Of a stretch of DNA of 64,000 bases, positions 6,038 to 35,000 are shown piece after piece (the first letter of the stretch is position 1; each line of letters starts with the position of its first letter). Source of the stretch: Apoda limacodes (lineage: Eukaryota > Arthropoda > Insecta > Lepidoptera > Limacodidae). A program made the position numbers and the translations under genes. Location of the stretch: the NCBI GenBank assembly GCA_946406115.1, contig OX291547.1:16807001-16871000 (forward strand), given 5' to 3'. The notes beneath the pieces are model-generated. The model did no database searches. It was not told where the DNA came from and saw nothing but the letters and a program-made list of their open reading frames with translations.

Positions 6038-6043
6038 TACATG
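6038..6043. repeat. Target-site duplication, left (TACATG)
   Basis: This 6-bp direct repeat immediately precedes AGTAGAGGG at the left tip of the palindromic element and is identical to 12889-12894. Six base pairs is the duplication length made by Polinton/Maverick integrases. Confidence 0.88.
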
Positions 6044-6057
6044 AGTAGAGGGCATTC

Positions 6058-6345
6058 GTTGGTTCTGGCGCACTACCCTCCAACCTCAACCCCTCGCCTA
6101 GAAAAAAGCTCACCAAGTTTTCTGCTTTGTACGACTCGCGCTTGACCACTCTCGAAACATCGTTGGTTCTGGCTCACTACCCTCCAACCCCAACCCCTCG
6201 CCTAAAAACTTTTCTGCCCCCGCACGACTCGCGCTTGACCACTCTCAAAGCCACCCCTGTGTCTGGGGTGTGGCGACTCTCGCGGTTGACCACTATCAAA
6301 ACCACTCCCTGTGTCTGGGCTATGTCGACTCACGCTTGACCAAAA
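6058..6345 (+). repeat. Subterminal minisatellite, left arm
   Basis: Diverged tandem units of about 100 bp start GTTGGTTCTGGC, pass through CCTCCAACC and CTCGCCTA, and end in GACTCGCGCTTGACCACTC. The last units are shortened and joined to TGTGTCTGGG blocks. The open frame across this stretch is a translation of the repeat, not a gene. Confidence 0.8.
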
Positions 6346-6837
6346 CTACTGCGTGACGTCACAGTGGCTCCTGTGTATAACTTGTTTCTTTGTATCATTA
6401 TCGTAATGGGTCTATCATGTTTTTCCCGTTCAAAATTAAGTTATTCTTATTTAATTACAATGATGTTGGTGGTGACATTCCAAAAACTAGTCCCCCGAGG
6501 GTGTATCTCAAGATTTTAGGGGTGTGTCCACTTACGCTTTACAAAAAATTAACCTGGAGACGTGTCGGTTCACGCTTGACATGACTTGACATGTTATACC
6601 TACAGAAAATCTTAAATTCAAGTCGGTCGAAGTTTAAAGGGAAAAGCTGATAATAGTGTTAAAGATTTACAACTAGCATCGACGTCAACATGATGTGTCA
6701 AATATGTGATTTACAGGTTAACCAAAGATTCTATGCTCAGCACTTACGATCTAAGTAACACAAATAGAAATGTCTTATTCTTAATCATAATTTACTTTAT
6801 GTGTCTGTTATATCACTTGTGAAGTATTTATAGCATC

Positions 6838-8912
6838 AATTGAAGAATCAATACTATTTTATTATTCATGCAGATTTTGATCAGGAAACAAAAGATTTAA
6901 AAAATTCTTTTGAATTTTTAAATTTGTCTATTAGGAATTGGATAAAAATTGGTGAATTAGAAAATTATTCAGAACCTTTAAGTGATGACATTAAAAATAA
7001 AATGTGTAATGTCACATAGTGATTTAGAAAAAAAAAAGAAAATGGTAGACCTTTAAAAAAAAACAGTTCTTAGAAATGCATGTTAATAAGTTCAATCCCT
7101 TACGGGGATCTTCGTATATTCGTAAAAAAGAACGATCAACAATGTTTTAAGTGGACTATATCCTGCAAATACACATTCCGATAGTGTATCATCATACTTT
7201 AGCCATCAAAATAAACTAACCTTTAATAATATTCAGTTCCCAATCAAATTATCTGATATACCCAAGGTAGAAAAACAAAATGACATTAGCATTAATATGT
7301 TTGAATTAGAGTTTAACAAAGAAAAAAAAACTTTACAAAATGTTCTAATTAATTACAAATTAACTTATTATTTTTAAACAATGGTTGAAATGGGTTTTTA
7401 ATTAATCACCAGAAGCATGACTGTGCTCAAATTTTTACTGAATAACTAGGAATTCATAAAAAAGAAAAATATTGGTTTAATAGGGAAACAAATAATGATG
7501 AAATCTATTTTGATAAATTTCAAAGAATATTAAAATTACATTTTATAATATATGCAGACTTTGTAGCTCATTTAAAACCCGTCGCCTATTGTATCCCTGA
7601 TCCATCGAAGTCATATACGTAAACAATACATGAACATGTAGTTTGTTCTTATGGATACTATATAAAATGTTCATATGATGATATACTGTCTATATACAGA
7701 ACATACTCAGAGCCTAATTGTACAAAAATGTTTTGAAAAATGATATTAGCAATATACATAGGATAAATTGTTTTCAAAAATGTCCACTTTCTTTAACTAA
7801 TGAAGAGAAGGATAAGACAATCGCAATTATGTTATATTAGGTGATGAAATCACAGTAGACTATGACTGGAATACTAGTAATTTTAGAGGTGTTAGTCACG
7901 AATTATTTAGTAGCACAAAGTATCGTGTTCCATTTTTCATTCCTATTTTATTTCACAATCTAAACAATTATGATGCTCATTTTATTGTTCATGCTTTGAA
8001 TTTTAAAGATTGAGAAATAAAAATAATTCCGCAAAATAAGTAAAAATATATTTCATTCTCATATAAACCTAATATGTCGTATAGTTCATTTGCGGTTTTT
8101 AGATTATTTTTAATTTATGATCTACTAGAGTTTAGATATATAGATGTTATATAAAGACCAATTTGCAGAATTAAGAAATCAATTACAAACGAATTTTAAT
8201 AAACTTATTAGGAAAGGTGTTTTTCTTCATGAATTTGTTAATTCTTATGAGTCCTTAAAAATTACATCTCTTCCAAATCAAGACGCTTTCTTTAACTCTT
8301 TAATACCAGTGTATCTAATTATAATAATAAACATGCTCAAAACGATGTCAGCCCAATTTAAATGTAAAAATATGTTGGAATATTCCAATCTATATTTAAG
8401 GACTTATGTTATGCTACTCACTGATATTTCTGAAAACTTTAGAATTTTTTATATCTAATGTGATATAATTGTAATTATTTATTTTCTTCTTTTTACACTA
8501 AGCTGTACACCTATCTATAATATATTTTTTGCCATGCAAAATGAGCTCTATTTTAAAATTAACCTGTAACCTTAAGTACCCTGAACATTTACATGATCTT
8601 AATTCAGATTTACCTTTATGCCTGAAAAACATTGTAAACGGTTATAGTAAAGATAAGAAATTAGTATCAATTTTTTATAATAAAACTAAAATATAATTTA
8701 CTATAGAAATCTCAAACAATGTTTACAACTTACTATGAAGTAAATTAGGGTTCATAGAATTTTACAGTTTAAGCATAGTCCTTAGTTGAAATATATATAT
8801 ACATTTAAATACACAAGTAAGAACTACAGCTAAAAGTGACTGAAAAAAGATTTTTATAAATAATACATTCTTTGGTAAATCTATGGAAAATGTTAAAAAC
8901 GTGAATTTGTGA
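6838..8912 (+). pseudogene. Decayed Polinton DNA polymerase B, left arm
   Basis: Scattered pieces align in order with the intact polymerase at 28144-31899: HADFDQETKDLKN near 6870, MHVNKFNPLRGSSYIR near 7077, YFSHQNKLTFNNI near 7198, then the exonuclease-III region FKCKNMLEYSNLYLRT near 8355, YPEHLHDLNSDLPLC near 8580 and FGKSMENVKN near 8872. Many stops and frameshifts separate them. The frame at 8144-8458 is the longest surviving piece. The enzyme cannot be functional. Confidence 0.82.
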
Positions 8913-9052
8913 AAAAAAAGATATTTATTTGGAGAATTATAAGTCAGTCTATGTATCACAAATGTAAATATTTCACGTGCAGAATTCGAAGTGTGAAACA
9001 CACTATATTACACAAAAAAATAAATAAACTTGTTGTAGACTTATATAAATAC

Positions 9053-9322
9053 TTAACCATTGTTTTTATCTTTATAATATCCAAGTTTCGTTTTATTAAA
9101 GTTTAATAATAAAGTAACTATAAATGTTATCACTAGGATAGTCTGAAGTATCGAAAAAAAGTGCATGGTATAATAATGAAAGTTATACATCAAAATTTTT
9201 ATATTTCCAATATACAAAATCGTAACAAGTATTTCGAGAGTCCTACAGACTTCACAAAAATTAATAAAACTTGTTGTAGATTTATAATTGCTTGATGTAA
9301 TTGCCGAATCTAAAGTTTTCAA
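9053..9322 (-). pseudogene. Polymerase B palm fragment, inverted relative to its arm (left)
   Basis: Read on the minus strand this keeps LMYNFHYYTMH and KTKLGYYKDKNNG. These correspond to LMYEFHYEYMN and KKLGLFKDENNG around the palm C motif of the intact polymerase. The catalytic TDTDS itself is lost. The rest of polymerase B in this arm reads on the plus strand, so the fragment is flipped within the arm. Confidence 0.7.
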
Positions 9323-9362
9323 GAAAATTGTGACAAAAAAAGAGATTTATTTGGAGAACTAT

Positions 9363-9500
9363 AAGTCTACAACAAGTTTATTTATTTTTTTGTGTAATAT
9401 AGTGTGTTTCACACTTCGAATTCTGCACGTGAAATATTTACATTAGTGATACATAGATACGACTTATAGTTCTCCAAATAAATCTCTTTTTTGTCACAAT
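9363..9500. repeat. Palindrome centre: extra copy of an arm segment
   Basis: About 96 bp at the centre (9367-9462) do not pair between the arms. The sequence from CTACAACAAG through CACGTGAAATATTTACA to CTCCAAATAAAT is a direct copy of 9788-9915 and the reverse complement of about 8915-9040. The segment thus exists three times, once at the turning point. Confidence 0.8.
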
Positions 9501-9504
9501 TTTC

Positions 9505-9774
9505 TTGAAAACTTTAGATTCGGCAATTACATCAAGCAATTATAAATCTACAACAAGTTTTATTAATTTTTGTGAAGTCTGTAGGACTCTCGAAATACTT
9601 GTTACGATTTTGTATATTGAAAATATAAAAATTTTGATGTATAACTTTCATTATTATACCATGCACTTTTTTTCGATACTTCAGACTATCCTAGTGATAA
9701 CATTTATAGTTACTTTATTATTAAACTTTAATAAAACGAAACTTGGATATTATAAAGATAAAAAACAATGGTAA
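9505..9774 (+). pseudogene. Polymerase B palm fragment, inverted relative to its arm (right)
   Basis: This is the mirror copy of 9053-9322. It differs by a G-to-E replacement within a shared ILYI.NIKILMYNFHYY stretch and by a 1-bp indel that changes the last residues. As on the left, its orientation is opposite to the rest of the polymerase in the same arm. Confidence 0.7.
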
Positions 9775-9915
9775 AGTATTTATATAAGTCTACAACAAGT
9801 TTATTTATTTTTTTGTGTAATATAGTGTGTTTCACACTTCGAATTCTGCACGTGAAATATTTACATTTGTGATACATAGACTGACTTATAATTCTCCAAA
9901 TAAATATCTTTTTTT

Positions 9916-11992
9916 TCACAAATTCACGTTTTTAACATTTTCCATAGATTTACCAAAGAATGTATTATTTATAAAAATCTTTTTTCAGTCACTTTTAGCT
10001 GTAGTTCTTACTTGTGTATTTAAATGTATATATATATTTCAACTAAGGACTATGCTTAAACTGTAAAATTCTATGAACCCTAATTTACTTCATAGTAAGT
10101 TGTAAACATTGTTTGAGATTTCTATAGTAAATTATATTTTAGTTTTATTATAAAAAATTGATACTAATTTCTTATCTTTACTATAACCGTTTACAATGTT
10201 TTTCAGGCATAAAGGTAAATCTGAATTAAGATCATGTAAATGTTCAGGGTACTTAAGGTTACAGGTTAATTTTAAAATAGAGCTCATTTTGCATGGCAAA
10301 AAATATATTATAGATAGGTGTACAGCTTAGTGTAAAAAGAAGAAAATAAATAATTACAATTATATCACATTAGATATAAAAAATTCTAAAGTTTTCAGAA
10401 ATATCAGTGAGTAGCATAACATAAGTTCTTAAATATAGATTGGAATATTCCAACATATTTTTACATTTAAATTGGGCTGACATCGTTTTGAGCATGTTTA
10501 TTATTATAATTAGATACACTGGTATTAAAGAGTTAAAGAAAGCGTCTTGATTTGGAAGAGATGTAATTTTTAAGGACTCAAAAGAATTAACAAATTCATG
10601 AAGAAAAACACCTTTCCTAATAAGTTTATTAAAATTCGTTTGTAATTGATTTCTTAATTCTGCAAATTGGTCTTTATATAACATCTATATATCTAAACTC
10701 TAGTAGATCATAAATTAAAAATAATCTAAAAACCGCAAATGAACTATACGACATATTAGGTTTATATGAGAATGAAATATATTTTTACTTATTTTGCGGA
10801 ATTATTTTTATTTCTCAATCTTTAAAATTCAAAGCATGAACAATAAAATGAGCATCATAATTGTTTAGATTGTGAAATAAAATAGGAATGAAAAATGGAA
10901 CACGATACTTTGTGCTACTAAATAATTCGTGACTAACACCTCTAAAATTACTAGTATTCCAGTCATAGTCTACTGTGATTTCATCACCTAATATAACATA
11001 ATTGCGATTGTCTTATCCTTCTCTTCATTAGTTAAAGAAAGTGGACATTTTTGAAAACAATTTATCCTATGTATATTGCTAATATCATTTTTCAAAACAT
11101 TTTTGTACAATTAGGCTCTGAGTATGTTCTGTATATAGACAGTTTATCATCATATGAACATTTTATATAGTATCCATAAGAACAAACTACATGTTCATGT
11201 ATTGTTTACGTATATGACTTCGATGGATCAGGGATACAATAGGCGACGGGTTTTAAATGAGCTACAAAGTCTGCATATATTATAAAATGTAATTTTAATA
11301 TTCTTTGAAATTTATCAAAATAGATTTCATCATTATTTGTTTCCCTATTAAACCAATATTTTTCTTTTTTATGAATTCCTAGTTATTCAGTAAAAATTTG
11401 AGCACAGTCATGCTTCTGGTGATTAATTAAAAACCCATTTCAACCATTGTTTAAAAATAATAAGTTAATTTGTAATTAATTAGAACATTTTGTAAAGTTT
11501 TTTTTTCTTTGTTAAACTCTAATTCAAACATATTAATGCTAATGTCATTTTGTTTTTCTACCTTGGGTATATCAGATAATTTGATTGGGAACTGAATATT
11601 ATTAAAGGTTAGTTTATTTTGATGGCTAAAGTATGATGATACACTATCGGAATGTGTATTTGCAGGATATAGTCCACTTAAAACATTGTTGATCGTTCTT
11701 TTTTACGAATATACGAAGATCCCCGTAAGGGATTGAACTTATTAACATGCATTTCTAAGAACTGTTTTTTTTTAAAGGTCTACCATTTTCTTTTTTTTTT
11801 CTAAATCACTATGTGACATTACACATTTTATTTTTAATGTCATCACTTAAAGGTTCTGAATAATTTTCTAATTCACCAATTTTTATCCAATTCCTAATAG
11901 ACAAATTTAAAAATTCAAAAGAATTTTTTAAATCTTTTGTTTCCTGATCAAAATCTGCATGAATAATAAAATAGTATTGATTCTTCAATTGA
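9916..11992 (-). pseudogene. Decayed Polinton DNA polymerase B, right arm
   Basis: Mirror copy of 6838-8912 with the same stops and frameshifts. The longest open piece is 10370-10684 and differs from the left arm by a single Y-to-F change. That shared damage shows the gene had decayed before the arms were duplicated, or that the arms have since been homogenised. Confidence 0.82.
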
Positions 11993-12487
11993 TGCTATAA
12001 ATACTTCACAAGTGATATAACAGACACATAAAGTAAATTATGATTAAGAATAAGACATTTCTATTTGTGTTACTTAGATCGTAAGTGCTGAGCATAGAAT
12101 CTTTGGTTAACCTGTAAATCACATATTTGACACATCATGTTGACGTCGATGCTAGTTGTAAATCTTTAACACTATTATCAGCTTTTCCCTTTAAACTTCG
12201 ACCGACTTGAATTTAAGATTTTCTGTAGGTATAACATGTCAAGTCATGTCAAGCGTGAACCGACACGTCTCCAGGTTAATTTTTTGTAAAGCGTAAGTGG
12301 ACACACCCCTAAAATCTTGAGATACACCCTCGGGGGACTAGTTTTTGGAATGTCACCACCAACATCATTGTAATTAAATAAGAATAACTTAATTTTGAAC
12401 GGGAAAAACATGATAGACCCATTACGATAATGATACAAAGAAACAAGTTATACACAGGAGCCACTGTGACGTCACGCAGTAGTTTTG

Positions 12488-12878
12488 GTCAAGCGTGAGT
12501 CGACATAGCCCAGACACAGGGAGTGGTTTTGATAGTGGTCAACCGCGAGAGTCGCCACACCCCAGACACAGGGGTGGCTTTGAGAGTGGTCAAGCGCGAG
12601 TCGTGCGGGGGCAGAAAAGTTTTTAGGCGAGGGGTTGGGGTTGGAGGGTAGTGAGCCAGAACCAACGATGTTTCGAGAGTGGTCAAGCGCGAGTCGTACA
12701 AAGCAGAAAACTTGGTGAGCTTTTTTCTAGGCGAGGGGTTGAGGTTGGAGGGTAGCGCGCCAGAACCAACGATGTTTTGAGAGTGGTCAAGCGCGAGTCG
12801 TACAAAGCAGAAAAATTGGTGAGCTTTTTTTTAGGCGAGGGGTTGAGGTTGGGGGGAAGTGCGCCAGAACCAACGAAT
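12488..12878 (-). repeat. Subterminal minisatellite, right arm
   Basis: Mirror of 6058-6345 with one additional unit of about 104 bp next to the tip, which accounts for the whole length difference between the arms. Units end with GCGCCAGAACCAACGA towards the element end. Confidence 0.8.
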
Positions 12879-12888
12879 CCCCTCTACT

Positions 12889-12894
12889 TACATG
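12889..12894. repeat. Target-site duplication, right (TACATG)
   Basis: This follows CCCTCTACT directly and is identical to 6038-6043. Confidence 0.88.
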
Positions 12895-17000: not shown

Positions 17001-20000
17001 GAACCGACTAAGATTACGAATTACGGCAGATAGATAAAAACAAAATGTTAGCCAATTTTATGCATATCGTGCCTAATGGAAAAGGTATGATGCCCATAGA
17101 CTCAGCATAAATTTCTCAACTTTACTTATTTCACAGGATTATTTCAAAGAGCGGTAGTGATGTCTCCACGAGGAATTTGGAAAATATTGGATGAAACAAA
17201 GGGAGCTACCGCAACTGAACTCGAAAAGATATCCCGTGATATAGCCAATAAACTGGATTGTACTGGGCCATCAGACGATGAAATCTTACAATGCTTGCGA
17301 GCTCGCCCCTTACCGAATATATTATCCTTACTCATGGTAATATTTTTATTAGTAAGGTACTGCCATCTCTGGGCAGATGCACCCGAATACCAGCTTGGCC
17401 CTTTATACTCGGTTCAACGACGGGGTTAGAGCACAAGCCGTATCGACCCCTTAAGCTTGAGGACAGACGTGGCCTCCCTGGGTGTGTTCTACCCCGAACG
17501 CTTAGAATGTGGAATGAGCTCCATGCCAAGGTTTCCTCTAAAGAGTTTTACAAGAAACAAGTTATTAGATTTTTTATGAGTCGGCAACGCGCGTGTTATG
17601 CCTCGGGTGTTACAAGCGTCCATAGACTGCGGTAACCGCTTACCATCAGGCGGTATTAAAGAAAATTTAAACGGTTTTGGTTTTGGCAAGGAAATCTTCT
17701 CAGCTCTATAAGAAATAATACGTACACCTTTTTTAATCATATGGTTCTACGTTTTAAACTGTTATTTCAGAACCACACGTTGAGTGAAGTTTTACAGCCA
17801 GTTTCGGACATTTTCCTGCCGGAATCAGAACAATATTTACCTAATTTGCCTTCAGTCGAACTATCAACTCCAAAACGGAATCTTGCATCTTTAGATTTAC
17901 TTTTCGGGACTACGGACCTCGAATCCATCAGTCACTATGGTAATTAGATGGATTTAATAAATTTTTTTATGGAAGAAGAATAATATGTCAACATACCTAA
18001 ATAAGACTTCTTTTCGCAGGTGACTATAACGAAGAGTTGATAAAGAGAGACACTGCATTTATTAATGAACGTGCCAACACTGTAGTTATACCGGAGCTTC
18101 TGCAAATGTTTTCTTTACACCGGTCAGAATCTTTATCAGTGGTAAGTGATGAAATCCAGAGTTACCTAAATATTCGAACTTAAATATGCAATTGATGAAA
18201 CTGCTTGGTATTTCAATTTCGGAACTTTTACAGCTGTTGCAGGCGATTCGATGGGAATACTGGGGCACTAAGCCTCAAAAAGAAATGAGTATTGAGGAAG
18301 CCGTGGAGGCATTAGCGCGCACGCAGACTTCTGCGATATGGGGAGCAGGCAGCGCGCTGCTGGCAGCCAGGCTAGCCCGTCGCGTGTCCCGCCTCTACGT
18401 TTACCGGTACTCTGCCCCTGGCGTAGACCTTCTTGGACGGCAATCAAATTTTTCTGGTATTTACATTTTTCAGCAACGCTAATATATAAAACATTTTTTT
18501 TTTGATATAACAAAGATCTAGTGAAAAGATTAACCTCGAGCCAGAACTTGGACCTGCAACCCTAAGATTTCACCTTAGTGCTCTGCCAATCAGTTTAGCA
18601 GTTGCGCATAAGCTACCTAGGAGATGTGTGTTTGTTGTTGTTGTTGTTCTACATCCCTCAGTAACATGTTAACTGTCTTACAGGTGCAGTTCATGGTTCT
18701 GATTTAGTTTCTCTTCTGGGATATGACATGATGCTTCAAGTTGCTAGAAGACCACCAACTTTGGATGAAAGAAGAATTTCTTCAGTTTTCCGTAGTTATA
18801 TTGTTAACTTTATCAAATTCGGGTAAAATTTTGTCAATTTATGATATTGTTTATATAGTAGTTTCACAATCCAATATAAACATTGGCGTAAGTAGTAGGG
18901 AGGTTCTATTCGCGGTCTAATTATTTTCATTCGCGTGTGGATCTACTTTATTCGCGATCTAATTATTTTAATTCGCGGTCCAATTATTTTAATTCGCGTG
19001 TGGATCAACTTTATTCGCGGTCTCATTATTTTAATTCGCGGTTCTATGAAATGTTCTGCGTGCAGTGTCAACAATGGTTTTTAACAACAATAGATAATTC
19101 ATTATTTAGTTTGGTTCTTTCAGTTTCTTTTATCTACGTCGTCCTGAGGTTTAATTTTTTGTAAGTCTCTGTGGGTAGCAACGATTTCTGGTAATAATGA
19201 ATTGTAATAACAATAAGACGTTGATTTATTTCTTAAATGCCGTGGGAGGTCCCTGCTAACAGGTTGATACATGTTTTACTACGAAGAGGCGTCATCTTTA
19301 GATTTTTTTTCAATTAAAATTATTTATTTAAGCTCTGTGACAAGCAAATACAGCTACTTACAATGCCAATATGGATTGTGATAACAATAGATAACTTATT
19401 GTTTGGTGTCCTTTATTTTGAACTTAAGCTTTAAAATTAAGACGACAGATTATTTCTTCAATGCACTTCCGAGGAGGTCTGTTAACAATTAGACACATGT
19501 TATCTATAGAAATATTTTCTATTAAAAATATTTATTTAAGCTCTTCGTCATGCAAACATTCCAATACCAATTCATATCGTGTGAGGTCTCTGTCATATCC
19601 TGTTAGAACACGCAAAGACATGTAGGCTATAACCATATATATATAAGGAACCATAGTAAAATTCACACTGCAGTCTTATTCGTGAGTTTCAAAGTTATAC
19701 CTACAGTGTTTTGTGTTCATATTCCATCAAATGGAGGTAAGTTTAATTACTTAATTTTCTCGATAGTGTATGTTTTATTGTTTTTTCATAATGTATGTGT
19801 GTAATTGTTTTATTATTGTCCTGTTTGGTCAAGTGGTTAGTGCAGCTAACTGCGGAGCCAAGGGTCACGGGTTCGAATCCCACAAGGAGCAGGTGTTTTT
19901 TGTGATGATTAAACATTTGTTACCGAATCATGGATGTTGTTTATATGTAGTCTATGTACTGATATTCTATGGTTGTTGTTTCTGGTTACCATAACACAAG

Positions 20001-23000
20001 TTTAATACTTAGCTTGGGGTCGGAACCATCTATGTGTATACGTTTATGTATATTATTTTATAACGGTATTACATAATTAGCGTCTAACCAATAGTTAAAG
20101 TACTGAGTTCCAATATTATTATTTTTTTTTCTCTTATGTGCTTGTAACAGCAATTAATGTGTGTTAGTATATTATTCAATCGAATCAAATAGTGAAGTTT
20201 GTTTGTTTATTGTTCTTTAACCCAGCAATAGAGATTATTAGCACTATAAGGAAATTTTATTAATTTCATTTTTATTAACTTATTGTTTTATAATTTTTAT
20301 TGTTCCAGCCTTTATCCCCGGAAAATTATACGTTAAAAAATTATTACTTTCCTTTGGATATGAGTCAAGAAGAAACAAAAGACTGTACTATTCAAAAAAA
20401 TTTGAAAAGCACAACAAAGCGGAATATCAAAAGTATTGACGCATTTTTTGAAAATCCTAAGAAAAGAAAATCTCAAGCAAAGTCTTCGTGTGTCAGTCAA
20501 GGCAATGAAAATGGAATCTCTTATATTTCTACCAATAATGACGACACAACGTCTGCAAGTCACCTATTAAAAATTGAAATATATAATATGAAAAAGATAA
20601 AGGACATACCAGTTGAACAGCATTGGAAATACGCAGATTTAAAAGTTAAATATTATACACAATCACATGACGACCAGCATTATCTAAGTACCCGGGATTC
20701 CATATATAATATTACAAAACAAATAGCAATGAACTGTGATTGTAAAAAGTTCTTCATTGAAACTAAAGATAAGCGGGGATATTAATTTCATTCATTCATT
20801 TACAACTTCTTAACATTATTAAACTTACTTTTGTACTTTTACCTGAGAACGCCAAAGCTTAAAAACAACAATAGATTTACCCCCCACGCTTCATTCAATA
20901 ACAAGTAGCCATTGTCAGAGTCAGTGTATTTAAAGACGGGCAAAAGACTTCTAGTCAATATTTTCTCACCAGCAAACACCATAGATGTGTTCAAAGATCG
21001 TGAATACGACAAGGATTTGCTTAACATGTGTTTTGAAGCGGAAAGAAAATATTTGTTACTCAATAGTGGTTACTCACTTCCGATATCACAACCATACGAG
21101 GAACGTAAAATTAATATTTTGACGGTGATGGACCAGTTGGAGCAAGAAAGACTTGAAAAGGAAATGTGCATTTCATACACACAAGAAGATTTATCACCAT
21201 CTTTCTATAGTCCTCAAGATTATGTTTAGCTTAAGAATGTAAAACACTGTTTATTTAATAAATAAATGTTGAATTAAAAATATCGTTTTTTATTTAATAA
21301 GTTCCCAACAAATAAAACACATAAATTCATAAATCTATAAGTTTATTTTAAAAAAATTGCTTTATAAAGTGCTCTTAAAATTAGATCATTATACAGAGTG
21401 TTATTTGAAAAAATGTTTACAAAATCCATCATAGAAATACCAATAGATCTCATAAATAGATACACTAAACAATATTCACCACAAACTGATGTATAATAAT
21501 TTTGTATCATTTTTGCATTAAAAAAATATTTTTTAGCGTTCCTTTGCATAAAGATTTTATGATATCCAGTTGGTTTTCGGCCATATGAATCGAAATATTC
21601 ACCGAAACCATTTTTGTCTATGTGAATAGCAATCCAATGAGATCCTGGTTTAGTGTCAGGATCTAAGTTACTTACAATATATGATGGATACGAAATGAAA
21701 ACGGGCATGCGATTTGAAGCAAAAACATTGCATTCTGCTAATGGATTAATTTTTTTTAATAATTTACGTATTTCATAAGTATCCATTACACCTCTCGTAA
21801 CTACAAAAGTTATTTTCAGAATGAATAAAATCATAGCTTTAGAACAATATATATGTTTTTTTAACTATTATAATCTACACTTACATCACGATTTTTATTA
21901 ATTTCTATAATGTTGTCAAATTCTGCATATATAATACAATTTACTGTAGTTTTTAAAGAGTTTTCGAAGCGGACTTCCAATCTAACACTTCCATGTCTTA
22001 TTAGATTCCAATGCGATTGTGAATTGGATGAAAGATCTGGGGTTAAATCAAAGGCTAATAAACAGTATCCATTGGCAAATTCTTCTCTAGATATATCATT
22101 ACCTTCATTCAAAAAATGAATACCAGTTCCCGAATATAAAGTGTGATATGCTGATGTAAATAAACTGCTATCAAATGAAGGTTGCAATGTTTTAGAAGGT
22201 ATTTGTTGGCCATCTACATATAAGCTAAACATATTTAAATTAAAGTTTTGAAAATTATATGGGTTCATATTAAAACTTCCATTAAAGGCTGAATTATTTA
22301 CAAAACCAACTATACATCTTTTGGGAACTTGACCTAAAAAAATATTATCAAGTGTTTTTCCTTGGATTCCTAAAGGTAACGTCATAACCTTGACTTCCGC
22401 ACGCGTTATAGGGTATTTGGCAGTAGTGTTGGCTAAAACTTTTTGATGAGCTAATAACACAGAAGGACTTATCCTAGCCCTTCTTATTAAAAGTGCTGCA
22501 TCATTGATTTGCACTTTTAACTTTAAATCTGTACTAGATGACATTAAGTTAAATGATTCTTTGGTACGTACTAATTTAATACGTAATTCAACACCGTTTA
22601 TCAAAAATTTGTCTTGATTAAATATATCACCATGTAAATGACCAATCAATTCAACTTCCTTGCTATCTTTCGTAAACTGCTGTCTCTTGGTGTAGCCTTC
22701 ATTGCTTTCATCAGCAGAATCCATTTTGTTTGAGGTATCTTTATACCACAAACCACATGTAAGATGTGATTTTTTTGCAGCAGGACCATAATTTAATAAA
22801 GTTTCAATATAAGAACGATAGGCATAGGTGTTGTTTGGTGGGGAAACAAGCTTTTGATTTAGATAAACATCCATTTGATTAAAAAGAGAATGTAACCAGT
22901 TATTAACTGGGGCAACACTTGTCGCTGCAGTTAATACAGTTGAATCATGATTTAAAACTCTAACTTTTAATTGGAGTAATGTATTAGATAAGTCAATATA

Positions 23001-26000
23001 GTCTTCTCCTGTACCAGGAACTTGAAATTCTATGGGACCTTCATCACTCAAAGATGAAATCGGTTTATAATGAATCCACTGACCATTCTCAATGCTTGTT
23101 TGTGTTGTTGGTAATGCAAATAAATCTAATTCAGACTTAGCACATTCACATGAAGTATTATGTAAGAACGACATTATTATTTGTTTAATTTAAGAAAAAA
23201 TATCACAACTATTCTTGTTAAAAACTTTTTTAGTAGTTCTTCTTTTCGTTGCTTTCAGAGCAATGGCTGATCGTTTATTACGTCTCTTGTTTTTATACCC
23301 TGATCCAGTCATAATGCTATCAATTTTACTATCTGCTTTCCGTTTTAAATTACTTGTTGCATCTTTCATGCGAGATTTAATAGAATCATTCATAGGTTGT
23401 GCATTCATCATATCAGACAGGAGACCTACACCCATATTCAATGCTTCTTTACTGACTGCCTTTGCACCACTCGATAGCAACGGAAGTACAGATCTAAACA
23501 ATCCCCCTAAAAAGCTTCCGATTCCATGGCCTCGTTGATATGGGACACCTTTGTAAATGATCCCCACTCCTGAACCAGCTTGATGAGAATAATAACTTTC
23601 ATATGGGCAAATACTATGATTACGATTATGAGAATTCATCTTATTCGTTTAAAATGAAGTTTAGCACACGCAGTTCCAAATTGAAATGGTATTGTTGCAC
23701 CTGTGTTTGTCCTTATATCTATTTCTATAGTATCAAACTCACGACGCATAACAGGTATATAGTGAGCTGGTGTAAACACATTCATTTTATAACCACCGTA
23801 AATATATTTTGTTGGGTCTAATGGAACTATTCGTAATAGTGATGTCATTACATCACCCACAATTTGAGGTTGCACAATATCAAAGTACAAAAAAAGTTGT
23901 GAAGGCAATCCTAAAAACAAATTAACAGGACATTTAGCTATGTTGTTTGCAATTAAATTAGTTTTTGGTCCAAAACCAAGTTAAAGACTTAGCTGTGGTG
24001 ACATCCTTAAAGATAAAATGTTTTTATTTTGGGGTGTTAAAGAAAAGAGTTTTGATGTCTCATCAAAACGAAACTTTATACAATCTTTTAAAAGGGGATT
24101 ACTGTTAAGGGCATTTAGAAGCTGATCAATGTCATCATATGTTGTAGCGGGTATGTGGGTTTTATATTCTGCAACACTTTCAATGTTGTCGACCAATATT
24201 TTTTTTCTAAGATATAGAACATTTTCATGTTCTCTGACATTTAAAATACTAAAAGGGTAATGAAATTCAACTAGTCCTACCAGCCACTCCCCTTCTAATT
24301 TAACTGTTTTAGGAAGCTTCGTCAAAAAGTTTGTTGTTGTATTGTTTGGGAAATAGGTCATTGAACTGTTACTTAACAGAGTCAAATAAAAGCTTTCTTG
24401 ACTCATATTAATTCAATGTTAGATGCTGGAATCCAGGTATTGAATTTTGATGGATAACCTTTCCACTTGACCAACACTTCTTTTATGCCTCTAATATACC
24501 TAAAACTTATGATTTTATCTATTTTGTGCTTAAGGGTGGGGTCGTATAAAACTTTTTGTAGTTCTTTAGCATAAAATGTACCTGATATTGATTCTCCTTC
24601 TAAATCATTAAGTGTATAAACTTTATAAGGCGACCTATGAATAATTGATGATATAACAAATACTTCAGCACTCCAATTAGTTTCATAGCCTTTTTGAAAT
24701 ATATGTTTATGCTTAGTTATTCTTACATGGTCACCAATTTGAAACTTAGGAAGCTCTGGATATATATTTTGGTTTTTATTTTTCCTGTCATATAAATTAG
24801 ACCAAACAGTCATAAAATTACTAGAATTGACGTCACATGGACACATTTTTATACTCGAATGGTAATGTGTGAAATGTATTATATGAATACATCAAATCTT
24901 GCAAAATATCTACATATCTATATGTATTTTTGTGAGTGAAATAACGCCACATTTTCATCTTAAGAGTTCTTTGAAATCTTTCTACAATACTTGCTTTAAT
25001 ATCTGGATTATTCGTTGTGTAGTAATTTATGTTTTTACTCTTAAAATACCTTCTAACATCTTTTGCAACGAATTCACTACCCTTATCAGATTGTATATGT
25101 TTTGGAGTTGCGTTAGCTTCTGTAAATATACTTTCAAAGCATTGTATTGTAGTTTCTGAATTCTTTTTTTTCATACATCTTGCAAAAGCATATTTACTAA
25201 AGACATCAATGACACAGATAATATATTTATAATTATCGTTATATTGACTATAGGTTCGCATATCGCTTAAATCAACTTGCCAAAGGTCGTTATAGTTTGA
25301 TAAAATGTATTTATTTCTAGAAAACTTTCTCTGAACAGGTCTATGTAAAGTATATGTTTCTTGCGCCTGTAACCATTTTTTTACTTCTTTTTTATTCATC
25401 TTTCCATCCATAGCTTGGGTTAACTTATCAATACTACTATAACCAGCTGGATTAGAAACATCATAATATATTTTGTCTATATCTAATACGGTGACCATCT
25501 TTCCCAGTCAATTTTCTTGCTTTTTATATCTTTTAAAGACGTTCTCGGTGTTTCACTACTGGGCGTAGCATGTTTTTCAGGGGGAGAAGTTTCTTTAAAT
25601 TTCTCTATATGTAGTTTCTTAACATACTCCAATGTTGTAGGATTACCGATACAATATATAGGTAAACTTATATCAGTTAATAACTGAGAAAATTCTTCCC
25701 ACCCCCTCGGTTTTGGACGTTTTAGCTGACGTAAGGTATCATTAATCAAATCTACAATATTGGTCCCAGGTATAACCTGCTCATTTATAGTGATTCTCCC
25801 TTGTGTATCCCATTTGACTTTATCATTATTTTCTATCAACGTTTTAATTAGCAGTTCACCTTTTTTTTTAAATGTCCTTGGAATTAATCTCATTAAATAA
25901 AAATAAGAATAGGGCTTATTGTAAACTACGTCCCTCTCTTTGGATGGTGACTGTGTAAGTAATGGTTCAGCTTTAATCTCTTCTTCTTTATATTTTTCTG

Positions 26001-29000
26001 TTAATTCACTGTCATCCGACACCAAAGGCAATTTTAGTGGTTGTCTTTCTTCACCAGTAAAATACAAATATCTTTGTAATGTTTGTGAATAGAGCTTCCA
26101 CTTCTCACGGTCTTCTAATTTCCTACTAAGAATATCCCGCATTTCCTTATCTAGTCGCGACAAGGAATCTTCAGGAATAATTTCTCTACGTTTGAGCCTT
26201 TCTAAGACGTTAGGTTCAATTAATAACATCTTTTTAGCGTTCTCCATTTTCTTATATGACAGAATTGAGCAAAGAACTAAGAACTGCACCCAAAATTACA
26301 GGTAAGAATGCACCACCTTTCTGTATAATTATCTTTTTTCTGAATTTATTTCTTCCTTTAGAAACTAATTTCCTGAGAACCACTTTGTGTTTTTTTAATT
26401 TAGACTTTTCTTGCTCCTTTAAAGGAATTTTACCATGTAAAACATTAAAAATACATTCACAGAGACAGTTTATTTCTTGCTCGTTACAACTTTTTAATAG
26501 TGCCTCACAATACTTTGGTTTAAGTGTATGTAAAGCTTTTAATAATTCTTTATGTGCCTTAACTCGTCTCATTATTATTAATTATTAAAAACATTTGTCT
26601 AAATAAATTTTTGATAAAATAACTGCCTATAATACTGTTGACACTAAACAATTTAAATTCAGGGACCTCAGTGAATATCTCTTCGTTTTTTTATTTGTTT
26701 TTTCTTTTAAATTAATTTTTTCTGCTAAAATAAAATTAAGCTGTTTACAAATATTGTTTAATTCTTCTTTACTAGTTTTTTGTTGTAAAGTTTTGCAATA
26801 CTTTCGTTTCAATACTTTTAATATTACACTAAATGAATTATTATTACACGTTGTTACGGTTCCGTGCATGATGTTGAACTAATTGATATTTGATCCTTCA
26901 TATTACATTTAAATCCTTTTTTTGGTATGTAAACAGTACAAAAAATATTATTGAGTGGAAATATATTACTTTTAAAGCGATACATGTCATTTGTTTTTTG
27001 TTTTAGATCTATCATCAAATAACCATGCGGATCACTAGTGGCATCTTTATAGGCTTCCTCTACAAATTTGGAATTATCAGGAAAAACTTGTCGTGCTAAA
27101 TGGCGTATTTGAGTTCTGTCCCGAGGATTTTTGAAATAAATTATATAAGAAGAGTTTAGTAAAATATCACGTTGACCTTTACCTTGATGAAATAAATTTT
27201 GAGTTATATAGAAAACGCTTAAATTTCTGTGATGGCTCCCTTTAGTAAAAATATCAACAACTCGTCCATCCGATTCTCGCATTAGGTCATCTATAACCAG
27301 TAATTGAGGTTCATTACCATCAAACATATTTAAATCTGGAATTCCTTGAGTGTATATAACATTACTAATATTATACAGTGGCTGCATTTCATCGTAACAC
27401 CAAAATATATGCTTAAAATCTGTGTCACATATTTTTTTAGCGCAGTTTATAAAATTTGTAACAAAATTAGATTTTCCACATCCACTCGGACCTGCTACTA
27501 TAGCTGTAAAAGGGTGTGAGAAATGAAACATCGTTTTTTTAATACGTGTTAGCTTCATAAGGATTTTAAGTCAAATGTCATTTGTTCACATTGAACATTA
27601 GTTTTAAATAAAATACAGTGATACTATAAAAATCATTTATTAAATATTTTAAATAGTAAAATGTAAAGTTGACAAAACAAATAATTAGGGTACCTTTATC
27701 TTTTTTTTATTAAATTAAAACAGTTTAATTCAGGCACAGAGAAAACCAATATACATTGTTAGACATGACTCATCAATACAAAATTAAAACAGTTTAATTC
27801 AGGCACAGAGAAAACCAATATACATTGTTAGACATGACTCATCAATACAAAATTAAAACAGTTTAATTCAGGCACAGAGAAAACCAATATAAATTGTTAT
27901 ACATAACTTATCAATACAAAATTAAAATTAAAATCAAGTAAAATTAGATGAAAATGAACATAACAGTTCAAATTAAAATTAAATAATATTTTAACATAAT
28001 ACAAAAATAATTTTACAACTTCTTTACATTTCTTAAACAATAATATATGTTTTAATGAAACACAGTACTTTTTAATTAGATTTAGTAAAAAAAAAAAAAG
28101 TTTTACAAAAAACAATTCAGAAAGTTTTTACATTATTTTCTAACTAAACATTTTTTAAGCTATAATGACCCCATGCCAGAGTATCGGTAGAATTTGGTTT
28201 TATATACCTTTTGCTATCATTGTAAGATAAAGAAACTTTATTACATTTTTGAGTAAAAATTATATGTTTAATAGATTTAAACCGAAGCATTTTACAAATT
28301 TCATTAGTATTATTAAATAAACAATTTTTGTAATTGTCAATTTTAAAGTTTTTGACAATGCTTTTGTTTATACCCTTTGCTTTAGCAACAAATTTATCTT
28401 CCACGTCAATCGCATACATTTTTGAGCGTAGTCCTACAAACTCTCTAAATATTTTACCATTATTTTCATCTTTAAATAATCCTAATTTTTTTCTATTTAA
28501 CAAAGGTATACCATATTTATTGTTAATTTCATAGTCTGAGGTGTCGAAATGTATGGCAACATCTGATTTAATATCGGAATAAAAGTTTTTTGTAAATACT
28601 TGATAAACTAAACTATCTGTATCTGTGTAAAGTAGTTTTAACCTATTCTGAAACTTCACGTTCATATATTCGTAATGGAACTCATACATTAGCGTTTTTG
28701 ATATATCTAAGATACAAAAACCTAAATAAATTGGTTTGTTATATAACATTTTTACCTTTTTTAATTGTATAGCAACTAATGACTCTGAAAAGATAGATAA
28801 ACTATGAAATTCAGGTCTTGCTAGCAGTGATTGAGCACCTTGAACATTTCCGCGATTCTCCCAATGAGTCACCAGCTTTACATTTACTCTTTTTTCAATA
28901 TTTTCCATAGTTTTACCGAAAACAGAGTTATTCATTAATTTATAAAAATCCTTTTGAACCTCAGAAACCGCCGATGCACGCAGGTTAGTATTTAAATCAA

Positions 29001-32000
29001 TGTACTTTTTTAACCAATCACTTTGTTTAAATTTTAAAATTCTATGCACTTTTAGTAATTTTAGTCCAGTTTGTAAACATTGTTTTAAATTTCGATAATG
29101 TATTATGTAATTATTTTTATTGTTTAAATTTAGAACTAATTTTTTTTCTTTTGTGTTACCAATACATATCTGATCAGGACAAAATGGAAAATCTGAATGT
29201 AAGTCATGTAAATGATCTGGATATTCTAAATCTACTTCCAATATATAACCATATTCTGAGTTATCAGGCACTTGAAAATTAGTATTTATGTCAACCCATT
29301 CAAACTCACTCGTCGGAAGGTATTGTGACATAGCCCAACCATATAGATTATTAGCATCAAGGTAAATTAAATAAGAAGAAGGTAAGTCACTATTATAATT
29401 GTCCATAAAAATATTGTTAGCTTTTGCATAACGGTTACTACATTGAGAAACCCCACCTCTTATTCCTTTTTGGATAAAAGCAAGTTTATCAAAATCTGTT
29501 AAAAGTTCTAACTTTTGTTGAGTATGTTTTAACATGGAATCCCAACTCAATCCAGGTGCAGTATAATACTGTGCAGCATCAAGACCATATGTTTCAAGAC
29601 ATAAATTTCGAAAGTTTTCAAACACATCAGCTAATAATAATACATCAGTTTTTAAATACAGATTAGAATAATCTAACATATTTTTACAGTTAAAATGATT
29701 CCAAACATCATTTGCATGTGCATAGTCCTCGTCAGATACATGCTCGTTATTCAAGGAACTAAAAAAAAATTCTTTTGTTGGTAGTGTCGTGTTTTGTAAT
29801 TTTTCATAGGATGTCATAAACTCATAGGGATAAATGCCTTTACGTGTTAAACGGATGAAATCTTCGTTGTTTGAAAATTTTTTACTAAGTTCATGAAATT
29901 GATTTGTATCAAGATTTTTTGCTAACTGAGAAAGACTACAAGACATGAATTTGAAAGAATCTACAAACCTTAATTTCATAGTACAATTATTTATTTGAAT
30001 GCACTTTGAAAATGATATGTATTTTTCTTTATTTTGAGGTATTATTTCTATTGCTCCGTCTACACTGTTCAGCGCATGTACTATAAAGTGACTATCATAA
30101 TTACTCAAGTTATGCAAAAAAATTGGAACGAATCGCGGGACTTTATAATTTGAAGAGCAAATCGAATGAGCTATTCCTCTATATAAACCCGTGTGTGTGT
30201 CATAATCTATAACAGACTCATTATTTAAATCTTTTTCACAAATGTAACAGGTTTTACTTTCTAATATATTTCTCTCATTCTCGACCGATAACGGTTGAGG
30301 ACTTTTATGGAAACTGTTTTTTTTAGCAATTTGTTTTAAATCATCTACTAGAGACTGCATAAAAACCTTAGCACAGTCCTTTCCAGTATAGGTCCTATAA
30401 GTAGACAGACTATTATCGTACGAACATTTAATATAATAACCGATGCTATATACTTCATGTTTTTGAATATTATTACTAAACGATTTGTTTGGGTCATTAT
30501 CACAACTATGAATTGGTAATAAAAGGGCTTCAAAATCAGCATAAATGACAAATGGAATTTTCAATTTTCTATCAAATTTATCAAATGACAATATATTATT
30601 TAAAATTGGTTCACCAAACCACATCTTTTTTTTGGGAAGTGAATTAGGTAAATCGGTTTTAATGTGATTACAATCAAACCTTTGATGGTTAGTTAATTCA
30701 TTTTGATTTCTAAATATTAACAAGCACCCGTCACAAATATGAACAGCTTCATTTTTTGATGAAATTTGTTTACTAACTAATCTAGATAAATTTTTAATGT
30801 AACAATAATGATAATTAGAACCGGTATTAATTAAAAGTAGATTAATGTGTTTTTGTTTTCGACACTTTGTAAAATGAAGCGGTCCTACTATTTTATTTTT
30901 TTTATTATTTGCATCGTACTCTAAACCAAAGACATTAATACTTACATCATTTAAATTTTCAAATTTATTTATATCCTTCAATTTAACGGGAAATGGAATA
31001 TTATTAAAATTTAATTTATTTTGGTGTCTAAAATATGAACAGACTCTATCAGCGTTATTATTTACTGGATATAAGGCTGAAAGCACAGCCCATTGAAAAC
31101 ATTGGTGGTCATAATTTTTCACATTAATTACCGCTTTTTTGTGTTTAATATCTAATGGTAAATCTATATACGATGAACCACGTAAGGGATTAAATTTATT
31201 AACATTCATATCTATATGTTTAATTGCACGTAAGCTCCAGCCGCTATCTTTTTTTTCAAAATTGGAAATCTTATTTGTTATCTCATTAATAATCATTGAA
31301 AATATTATTTCAAAATCATCTCCACGACAATACACATAGTTAAAAGTTTGGAAATCGAAAGTATTTTTTAAGTCTTTTGTTGGTTGTATAAAATCAGCAT
31401 TTAAATTAAAATTTACTTTTATGACGGTTAATTGATTAATGCAATCACTTATTAACTGAAACAAAGTTTCTTTAATACCTTGGAGAAACGAGTCAGGCGT
31501 CTCGAATTCTACCTGGGCTACAGTTTGTTTTGGGGTTATTCTATAGGTTAATATGCGTGCTCCAAATGCAGTTTCAATTAAATGAACATTTGAAAACTTT
31601 TCATGACATATTATTACATTGTTTTTATGGGAATTACTTTTTAAATGACTAGTAAAATGTTTTTTGTGGATAAAAACTTTACATTGGGGGCATTCAATCT
31701 TATCAATATTTGAACTTACATCTAAAAGAAAAGTAGACGATGCAGCTGCTGATGATGTCGATGGTACTGCTTCAGGGCCACCCCTTGATGTAGTCGCTTG
31801 TGGTTCTGATGTACGAAGTCGTTTTTCCAGTACATTTTCTCCATCTAGAGCAATTTTTCTTTTTCCACCAACTTGGCTGTAAACAATAGAAAAAAACACA
31901 ATTATTATAAAAAATATAACAGAAATATATAATTAGAAATTTAGAACATTATAAATAAGTCACATAAAAAAACCATCTCACGTTTATTTACTATTTTTAC

Positions 32001-35000
32001 TAGAGGTGCAATATGCTATGACCGGTAATAATCCGTCAATTTCATCACCCCCACTGATTAAATGCGTATTACATGGCGTATAATACGGTTTAAAGTCTGG
32101 ATCCTCAATCATTGATTTAGAAAGTTTGCCATTTATAAACCAAAATCTAATATAACGATGGAATCTACTTAAAATAATTGCTTTGTCGAGTAAAATTATT
32201 TCCTCACTAGTAAGCGACCACATTTTGTTAAACTAACAGTAACAATAATCTCAAACCAAAATACATTCTTTTATATGATCCACCCCTCCAATGCTATACA
32301 ATAAGTTGTTACAAATAAAACAAGTCGAGACAAGACAGCTAGTAAACCCAAATACTTACAATGTCTGTTCTTGGTTGTTGCACTGGTGATTTTTTTCTTC
32401 GTGTAGACATATTTTATAGAGCAATTGATCGTATTCATCAATGAGTTTTATTTCTTCCTGTATACAAAGTTCATACAGTTGTTGGTCGAAGTAATCGTTT
32501 TGTAAATCTGAAGCGTCCATGATGATGTTAGTTTGTATAAGAGTATTGAAAGTGAACGAGGTATCGCTTAAATATAACTTGTAGCCTAAGTACCTGTGGA
32601 CGAAGGCGTGAGAAATCTATTGTTGTTTTTAAGCTTTGGCGTTCTCAGGTAAAAGTACAAAAGTAAGTTTAATAATGTTAAGAAGTTGTAAATGAATGAA
32701 TGAAATTAATATCCCCGCTTATCTTTAGTTTCAATGAAGAACTTTTTACAATCACAGTTCATTGCTATTTGTTTTGTAATATTATATATGGAATCCCGGG
32801 TACTTAGATAATGCTGGTCGTCATGTGATTGTGTATAATATTTAACTTTTAAGTCTGCGTATTTCCAATGCTGTTCAACTGGTATGTCCTTTATCTTTTT
32901 CATATTATATATTTCAATTTTTAATAGGTGACTTGCAGACGTTGTGTCGTCATTATTGGTAGAAATATAAGAGATTCCATTTTCATTGCCTTGACTGACA
33001 CACGAAGACTTTGCTTGAGATTTTCTTTTCTTAGGATTTTCAAAAAATGCGTCAATACTTTTGATATTCCGCTTTGTTGTGCTTTTCAAATTTTTTTGAA
33101 TAGTACAGTCTTTTGTTTCTTCTTGACTCATATCCAAAGGAAAGTAATAATTTTTTAACGTATAATTTTCCGGGGATAAAGGCTGGAACAATAAAAATTA
33201 TAAAACAATAAGTTAATAAAAATGAAATTAATAAAATTTCCTTATAGTGCTAATAATCTCTATTGCTGGGTTAAAGAACAATAAACAAACAAACTTCACT
33301 ATTTGATTCGATTGAATAATATACTAACACACATTAATTGCTGTTACAAGCACATAAGAGAAAAAAAAATAATAATATTGGAACTCAGTACTTTAACTAT
33401 TGGTTAGACGCTAATTATGTAATACCGTTATAAAATAATATACATAAACGTATACACATAGATGGTTCCGACCCCAAGCTAAGTATTAAACTTGTGTTAT
33501 GGTAACCAGAAACAACAACCATAGAATATCAGTACATAGACTACATATAAACAACAACACACCTGCTCCTTGTGGGATTCGAACCCGTGACCCTTGGCTC
33601 CGCAGTTAGCTGCACTAACCACTTGACCAAACAGGACAATAATAAAACAATTACACACATACATTATGAAAAAACAATAAAACATACACTATCGAGAAAA
33701 TTAAGTAATTAAACTTACCTCCATTTGATGGAATATGAACACAAAACACTGTAGGTATAACTTTGAAACTCACGAATAAGACTGCAGTGTGAATTTTACT
33801 GTGGTTCCTTATATATATATGGTTATAGCCTACATGTCTTTGCGTGTTCTAACAGGATATGACAGAGACCTCACACGATATGAATTGGTATTGGAATGTT
33901 TGCATGACGAAGAGCTTAAATAAATATTTTTAATAGAAAATATTTCTATAGATAACATGTGTCTAATTGTTAACAGACCTCCTCGGAAGTGCATTGAAGA
34001 AATAATCTGTCGTCTTAATTTTAAAGCTTAAGTTCAAAATAAAGGACACCAAACAATAAGTTATCTATTGTTATCACAATCCATATTGGCATTGTAAGTA
34101 GCTGTATTTGCTTGTCACAGAGCTTAAATAAATAATTGTAATTGAAAAAATTTCTAAAGATGACGCCTCTTCGTAGTAAAACATGTATCAACCTGTTAGC
34201 AGGGACCTCCCACGGCATTTAAGAAATAAATCAACGTCTTATTGTTATTACAATTCATTATTACCAGAAATCGTTGCTACCCACAGAGACTTACAAAAAA
34301 TTAAACCTCAGGACGACGTAGATAAAAGAAACTGAAAGAACCAAACTAAATAATGAATTATCTATTGTTGTTAAAAACCATTGTTGACACTGCACGCAGA
34401 ACATTTCATAGAACCGCGAATTAAAATAATGAGACCGCGAATAAAGTTTATCCACACGCGAATTAAAATAATTGGACCGCGAATTAAAATAATTAGATCG
34501 CGAATAAAGTAGATCCACACGCGAATGAAAATAATTAGACCGCGAATAAAATTGATCCACACGCGAATAAAAATAATTGGACCGCGAATAAAGTTGATTC
34601 ACATATGATCCGCGAGTGTGTAGAGAGCTTTTCCGCGAGCCCCCAATAACCCCCTCAGAGGCCCCTCAAAGTTGAGCCAGTCCCCGTACCTGCCTACTAC
34701 TGGCGTAGAGCTATTCTAGCTATTATAGCTTATACTGTGCTTTTGCGCCTTCTTGACATAGGTAAGTAGGTAAGTACTATAATGTCAGACAGGGTCTGTA
34801 AGTATTCGATATATATATTCATGAGTATCGGATATTTTGATATATAGGTTTTATAAAAAGAAAAGTGAGACCCACTTACTCCCTGAGAGATATAAATACA
34901 ATTACAAGTTTTCAAACAAATAATAAATCAACGATAGATATTTTTAAAGTTTAGACTCTCAAACGTAGTTTAAAAACGTAACATCATTATTTTTTTATAT

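Follow-up and report, generated by a model that had tools for sequence, protein, structure and literature searches.

Foldback and Galileo elements have long foldback arms that bear terminal and central tandem arrays, and adenoviruses are known to form genomes in which the left end is symmetrically duplicated. Palindromic non-autonomous elements as such are not new, because a palindromic miniature inverted-repeat transposable element (MITE) derived from a hAT transposon has been described in cod (PMC12368964). Incomplete particles of adenovirus have been reported to show a left-end bias (PMC12090768), and intact Mavericks (Polintons) of vertebrates to span 12.7-24.6 kb, with terminal repeats of 46-1,447 bp and end motifs of the form (AGT)2 or (AG)3, these repeated motifs being thought to aid jumping-back initiation (PMC8097293). 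In the present study, a 64,000-nucleotide stretch of the genome of the moth Apoda limacodes (hereafter the window) was found to contain a palindromic element that is by descent a Polinton derivative and that, in the way it works, resembles both a copy-back defective genome and foldback elements. The reading that we prefer, with a probability of about 0.77, is that it is one of many copies in a family of non-autonomous palindromic (foldback-type) Polinton derivatives, which is moved by Polintons and in which the two arms are re-equalised by fold-back copying. No palindromic Polinton was found in the titles and abstract openings among the literature matches listed.

The family shares with Polintons/Mavericks its AGTAG tips, its inverted termini, a 6-bp target duplication and a relic of the DNA polymerase PolB, but it is without a working gene, its two-armed copies measure 4.8-10.2 kb from tip to tip (the one-armed copy L029 has 3.95 kb), and the inverted repeats make up nearly the entire element. 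Very long inverted repeats, internal arrays, an almost absent middle and non-autonomy are common to it and to Foldback/Galileo elements and palindromic MITEs, whereas the tips, the target duplication and the source gene are different. As in the snap-back defective genomes of protein-primed replicons, such as those of adenovirus incomplete particles, the halves come from one genome end and the replication genes act in trans; unlike those genomes, the family is integrated, inherited and present in many copies. Fold-back inverted duplications also have a short inverted repeat at their centre, but the product in the window is a mobile element and its spacer (93 nt) is longer.

The window element occupies 6044-12888 and is a palindrome of 6,845 bp, bounded and divided as follows:
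6038-6043, no strand: left 6-bp target site duplication, TACATG
12889-12894, no strand: right 6-bp target site duplication, TACATG
6044-6052, plus strand: left tip, AGTAGAGGG
12880-12888, minus strand: right tip, AGTAGAGGG, which appears as CCCTCTACT on the forward strand
6044-9367, plus strand: left arm of the palindrome
9461-12888, minus strand: right arm of the palindrome

An inverted-repeat scan of the window paired 6056-9067 with 9761-12772 and 9063-9340 with 9487-9764, and the alignment of arm against arm (6056-9367 with 9461-12772) covered 3,312 nt with 6 substitutions and two 1-nt indels. Beyond this paired stretch, the right end carries one additional 104-nt terminal repeat unit, and the two tips are not alike at base 10. 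Apart from the additional unit, the only unpaired sequence is the 93-nt spacer at 9368-9460, and with 93 nt of 6,845 in the spacer the inverted repeats are nearly the whole element, which is a foldback-type structure. A 19-base pattern of the tip, with up to 3 mismatches allowed, matched the window at the two tips and nowhere else, against 0.02 matches expected by chance. The original prediction, made from the letters of the window, had described arms complementary from tip to near the centre, TACATG on both sides and the same polymerase stops in both arms, and all of these were observed. The termini are inverted, and, as a correction to that prediction, the tip reads AGTAGA, which is not exactly the (AGT)2 or (AG)3 of vertebrate Mavericks.

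Each arm has a G+C-rich terminal tandem array at its tip and then an A+T-rich relic of a Polinton-type DNA polymerase, and the two arms meet in a short centre. The following features were recognised, with residues numbered on the polymerase homologue P0016:
6044-6342, plus strand: left G+C-rich terminal tandem array, with 104-nt and about 52-nt units
12486-12888, minus strand: right terminal tandem array, with one 104-nt unit more than the left
6690-8909, plus strand: decayed Polinton-type PolB relic of the left arm, with stops and frame changes (residues 75-1013, in pieces)
9919-12138, minus strand: PolB relic of the right arm (outer limit placed by arm symmetry)
8904-9045, plus strand: X block of the left arm, part of a central unit of about 422 nt that is tandemly repeated in other copies
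9783-9924, minus strand: X block of the right arm
9056-9278, minus strand: inverted PolB fragment of the left arm, without the YTDTDS motif (residues about 1059-1154)
9549-9772, plus strand: inverted PolB fragment of the right arm (coordinates placed by symmetry)
9360-9367, plus strand: TATAAGTC, the 8-bp inverted repeat that borders the spacer on the left
9461-9468, plus strand: GACTTATA, the 8-bp inverted repeat that borders the spacer on the right
9368-9460, no strand: unpaired 93-nt centre, an inverted near-identical copy of arm sequence within 8948-9045

The extra right-hand unit differs from the adjoining one at 6/104 positions. The PolB frame of 1,251 aa from a Polinton elsewhere in the window matches both arms, piecewise. 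The relic contains 18 stops in 725 aligned residues, plus several frame changes, and its largest hole relative to P0016 covers residues 773-894; with these residues and the YTDTDS stretch absent, it is not a working protein-primed PolB. Both arms represent the polymerase-side end, and the halves of the palindrome thus come from one parental end, as in a snap-back genome. Across the family, the centres are arrays of about 422-nt units in variable number. Among 24 loci, 92-94 nt lie between the inverted repeat in 9 and 154 nt in 3, four (L030-L033) have a longer, asymmetric middle, and the remaining loci differ or are truncated; the palindrome centre is therefore often inherited and sometimes remade. 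At the joint locus L019+L020 (C12, 26.58 Mb), the central 422-nt array is greatly expanded and lopsided, with about 2 versus 8 units.

The window's own assembly (800 Mb, 31 contigs) was searched with the left arm and with the terminal 657 nt; both searches score the best candidates only, so that the locus counts are lower bounds, and the matches were grouped into loci by hand. The left arm detected at least 24 loci, the window counted, and the terminal 657 nt at least 7 further paired loci together with 7 single ends, which brings the family to at least 31 loci on 17 contigs. Of these loci, 28/31 match themselves in inverted orientation over 1 kb or more; the exceptions are L015 and L029, which have lost one arm, and L036, which stops at an assembly gap. 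All 21 two-tipped loci have identical 6-bp duplications at both ends, and the duplications still match, as read by eye, in L018, L019_20 and L026, in each of which one tip is damaged or lost. The 24 target duplication sequences are all mutually different. The family is recent, and 18 of the 19 measured arm pairs differ by 0-0.24%. A site without the element was also found in the window:
41462-41772, minus strand: empty-site paralogue of L021 (joined flanks, ungapped over 311 nt, 90.7%)

This empty site lies inside a repeat, and 1 of its 6 target bases differs. The joined flanks of the window element itself match a flank of L013 at 38/44 nt, with no gap and a single TACATG. The palindrome was thus inserted as a unit, as had been claimed, and has spread as a family, as seen from the matching and mutually different duplications at the 21 two-tipped loci and from the ungapped empty-site paralogue. 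Copies with the same tips and differing 6-bp duplications, which the original prediction had proposed to look for, were found; the empty site that it had also named was recovered in paralogous form for L021, but for the window element over 44 nt only.

The ends of some copies are unusual. In L018, L019+L020 and L026, the tip unit at one end is short by roughly 63-88 nt, as judged by eye, yet the exact target duplication adjoins it, and the tip remnants there are none, AG or AGTA; these ends were perhaps shortened before or at insertion. Both arms of L025 and L027 contain, as mirror images, a second AGTAGAGGG tip that is nested about 146-164 nt inward of the outer one.

The stops of the relic were compared in 43 arms from 24 loci, to which the 7 later-fetched loci do not belong; matches of at least 1,000 query nt had given 44 arms, of which the 43 with more than 60% coverage were kept and L018_R was dropped. 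Sixteen of the 18 stops occur in every ungapped arm, and the other two in 41/42 and 22/41. Moreover, the PolB relic is present in 31/31 loci, which marks the family as derived from an element with a Polinton PolB, and the 7 single ends also hold this relic and stops in it, as seen in 1.3 kb of interior per end. The polymerase had therefore died before the family multiplied. The integrase of the Polinton 6 kb from the palindrome has no match in any of the 31 loci, though the same query finds that Polinton itself; the same holds for three further proteins of that Polinton (0/31 loci each, each query finding its source), which may or may not include a capsid protein. A dead polymerase and no integrase match in 31 loci mean that other machinery replicated and inserted the family, which is non-autonomous and was spread in trans, as had been proposed from the window. 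The natural candidates for this machinery are a Polinton polymerase and integrase, because the 6-bp duplications and the AGTAG tips match those of the nearby Polinton and resemble those of vertebrate Mavericks.

The arms of the family evolve in concert. Variants were counted as substitutions only, in 18 elements with two long arms (L034 and elements without two long arms excluded), and those shared by at least two elements were found on both arms in 164/169 carrier cases, with 4 of the 5 exceptions being different alleles at one site. In a maximum-likelihood tree of the 43 arms, 15 branches have an ultrafast bootstrap of at least 90; none of them splits the arms of an element, and 9 join exactly the two arms of one element. 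Subfamilies are 2-3% apart, and six distant copies (L038_39 and L040-L044) differ by 2.0-3.1% from the window arm but by 0-0.54% between their own arms. For example, the arms of L038_39 have 0 mismatches and 1 gap in 2,844 nt, and those of L042 have 1 mismatch in 1,850, each copy being 2.6% from the window arm. Furthermore, terminal-array length is correlated between arms (Spearman 0.73, permutation p 0.0002) in the 14 of 21 two-tipped elements used for this comparison. Plain copying of both arms is disfavoured, because mutations on one parental arm are hardly ever inherited one-armed, and the simplest reading is that the arms are re-equalised during replication or transposition.

Each copy would then comprise the polymerase-side end of an old Polinton twice, in inverted orientation, each time with the tip, the terminal repeats and much of the dead PolB, and the two halves would meet at a short spacer within a small array of central repeats. 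The Polinton polymerase would start at the tip and displace a strand, and a displaced strand ending in the polymerase gene would, most likely, fold back on TATAAGTC/GACTTATA and copy itself to its own tip. The resulting palindrome would possess two working tips, at which the integrase could insert it with a 6-bp duplication, and both copying and insertion would be provided in trans by the protein-primed polymerase and the integrase of autonomous Polintons. Later rounds may go through the same hairpin, and fold-back copying or hairpin repair at replication or transposition may keep the arms near-identical, because one arm can template the other. For priming by fold-back, a strand needs a short inverted repeat on which to turn back, such as the one at the centre, and fold-back on short repeats has been described in yeast, where 11 bp with a 6-bp spacer, or 5 bp with 35 bp, are reported to suffice (PMC10622511), and fold-back inverted duplications have been described at repeats of 5-9 bp with 3-12 bp between them (PMC7999016). 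In addition, work on fungal linear protein-primed plasmids describes panhandle-shaped replication intermediates as well as long inverted repeats of flanking DNA (PMC1864894). The 8-bp inverted repeat in the middle of the palindrome and the concerted evolution of the arms are consistent with the snap-back product of protein-primed replication that had been proposed for the window, while the origin itself, together with the fold-back step and its timing, is what we infer.

A more far-reaching proposal, which we hold tentatively and at slightly less than even odds, is that a copy-back genome (of the defective-interfering type) of a virus-like Polinton has turned into a heritable, self-regenerating transposon that is parasitic on autonomous Polintons. 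One tip and one arm would suffice for such an element, because in each cycle a truncated strand could fold back and rebuild the missing arm, which would render the palindrome self-repairing. Transcripts running through such a palindrome would form long hairpins of polymerase sequence and might, in addition, silence the helper.

Several observations weigh against the preferred reading. The genome yielded no intact, autonomous element bearing AGTAGAGGG tips, with no PolB-directed search of it completed, and the family tip departs from the vertebrate Maverick motifs. Six of the 18 relic stops sit in a weakly aligned part (27% identity). The arms of L034 are less alike (0.79%), and those of L037 have 26 mismatches in 2,600, which is above its 0.59% distance from the window arm. 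Central arrays are often unequal between arms, as in L019_20 above, and terminal arrays are more than 10 nt apart in 8/14 elements, so that equalisation is incomplete or these parts change later. Finally, variants private to one element are found on both arms in 30 cases and on one arm in 39, and gene conversion after insertion could give the same.

This last observation leads to the strongest rival, in which the palindromes spread without changing and the arms owe their identity to gene conversion after insertion and not to the replication or transposition cycle; its odds overlap with those of the preferred reading, and we regard it as rather unlikely, though a serious competitor. Arm-to-arm conversion is known for Y-chromosome palindromes (PMC7999016), and the presence of 30/69 private variable sites on both arms is as expected from it. 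However, 39 private variants are one-armed, yet only 1 of about 165 propagated variants is, and the lengths of the terminal arrays also track across arms.

Another reading, which we consider improbable, would place the family in a different superfamily: a foldback transposon would have picked up a piece of PolB and would depend on an unrelated transposase for its movement. The terminal and central arrays on foldback arms are like those of Foldback/Galileo, AGTAGA is not exactly a known Maverick motif, and the hAT-derived MITE of cod is palindromic (PMC12368964); but the 6-bp duplications and AGTAG tips are shared with the Polinton 6 kb away and are similar to those of vertebrate Mavericks, and the N-terminal part of PolB lies tipward, as it does in that Polinton.

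A very small chance is left for an ordinary Polinton that became palindromic in place through a break, fold-back at the inverted repeat, copying of the left arm and a switch into the right terminal repeat. Fold-back with a repeat switch has been proposed for yeast (PMC10622511), and such a switch could account for the extra right-hand unit with its 6/104 differences and for the differing base 10. However, the same centre type occurs at 9 loci, long inverted duplications occur at 28/31, and the target duplications are of 24 different sequences. Moreover, nearly all other tips of the family have G as base 10 and the C at the left tip of the window element is a private change, so that base 10 was dropped as a mark of two different Polinton ends. 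As a general explanation, conversion in place is refuted by the other genomic copies, and the alternative raised in the original prediction, that the inverted repeats of one Polinton had grown in place, is not supported.

An assembly artefact from hairpin reads or collapsed repeats was rejected as having a negligible chance: a 200-N gap lies inside 3/31 loci (L021, L031, L036), but the copies are on 17 contigs, with exact matching duplications at both tips, differing flanks and arm differences.

To our knowledge, no transposition intermediate of a Polinton has been caught. Recent palindromes with equal arms are indirect evidence of a fold-back, protein-primed, single-strand stage, and the family offers a natural mini-replicon for testing such a stage. 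The findings suggest that a genome that had broken and folded back went on to succeed as an inherited parasite, and they show one way in which defective viral genomes could turn into heritable elements. Present searches can miss such a class; one survey is reported to have been restricted to insert sizes of 6-80 kb (PMC12220804), and a survey with this filter would probably have dropped the palindromes.

Searches of the viral contigs of IMG/VR were also made. The PolB of the Polinton in the window, used alone as the query, had no match there, and an alignment of 15 PolB sequences led to two loci, neither with an inverted repeat of at least 60 nt in the retrieved stretch. A 17-base terminal pattern gave two matches with no further similarity to the arms, and these were taken as chance.

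The Polinton at 18891-34701 of the window is apparently complete and recent. It has the tips AGTAGTAGG and the target duplication GGCGTA, and its core inverted repeats show 6 differences in 1,793 compared positions and one indel. Two of its genes are located as follows:
24833-25498: rve integrase
24403-24846: chromodomain open reading frame

Its PolB had no Pfam match at E 0.001, and the name therefore rests on homologues, some of which are annotated as DNA-directed DNA polymerase. Among the matches listed (120 of 7,921), the top-scoring homologue is from a lacewing, with 50% identity, and the named homologues with at least 62% identity are all Lepidopteran (Plutella, Bicyclus, Cydia, Pieris and others). 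The right end of this Polinton (34571-34701) has about 140 nt more than the left, directly behind the shared tip, like the extra unit of the palindrome. ARAGORN detected no tRNA in the window; a stretch in the inverted repeat of this Polinton (19824-19899), which adjoins the indel between its two repeats, is tRNA-like by eye.

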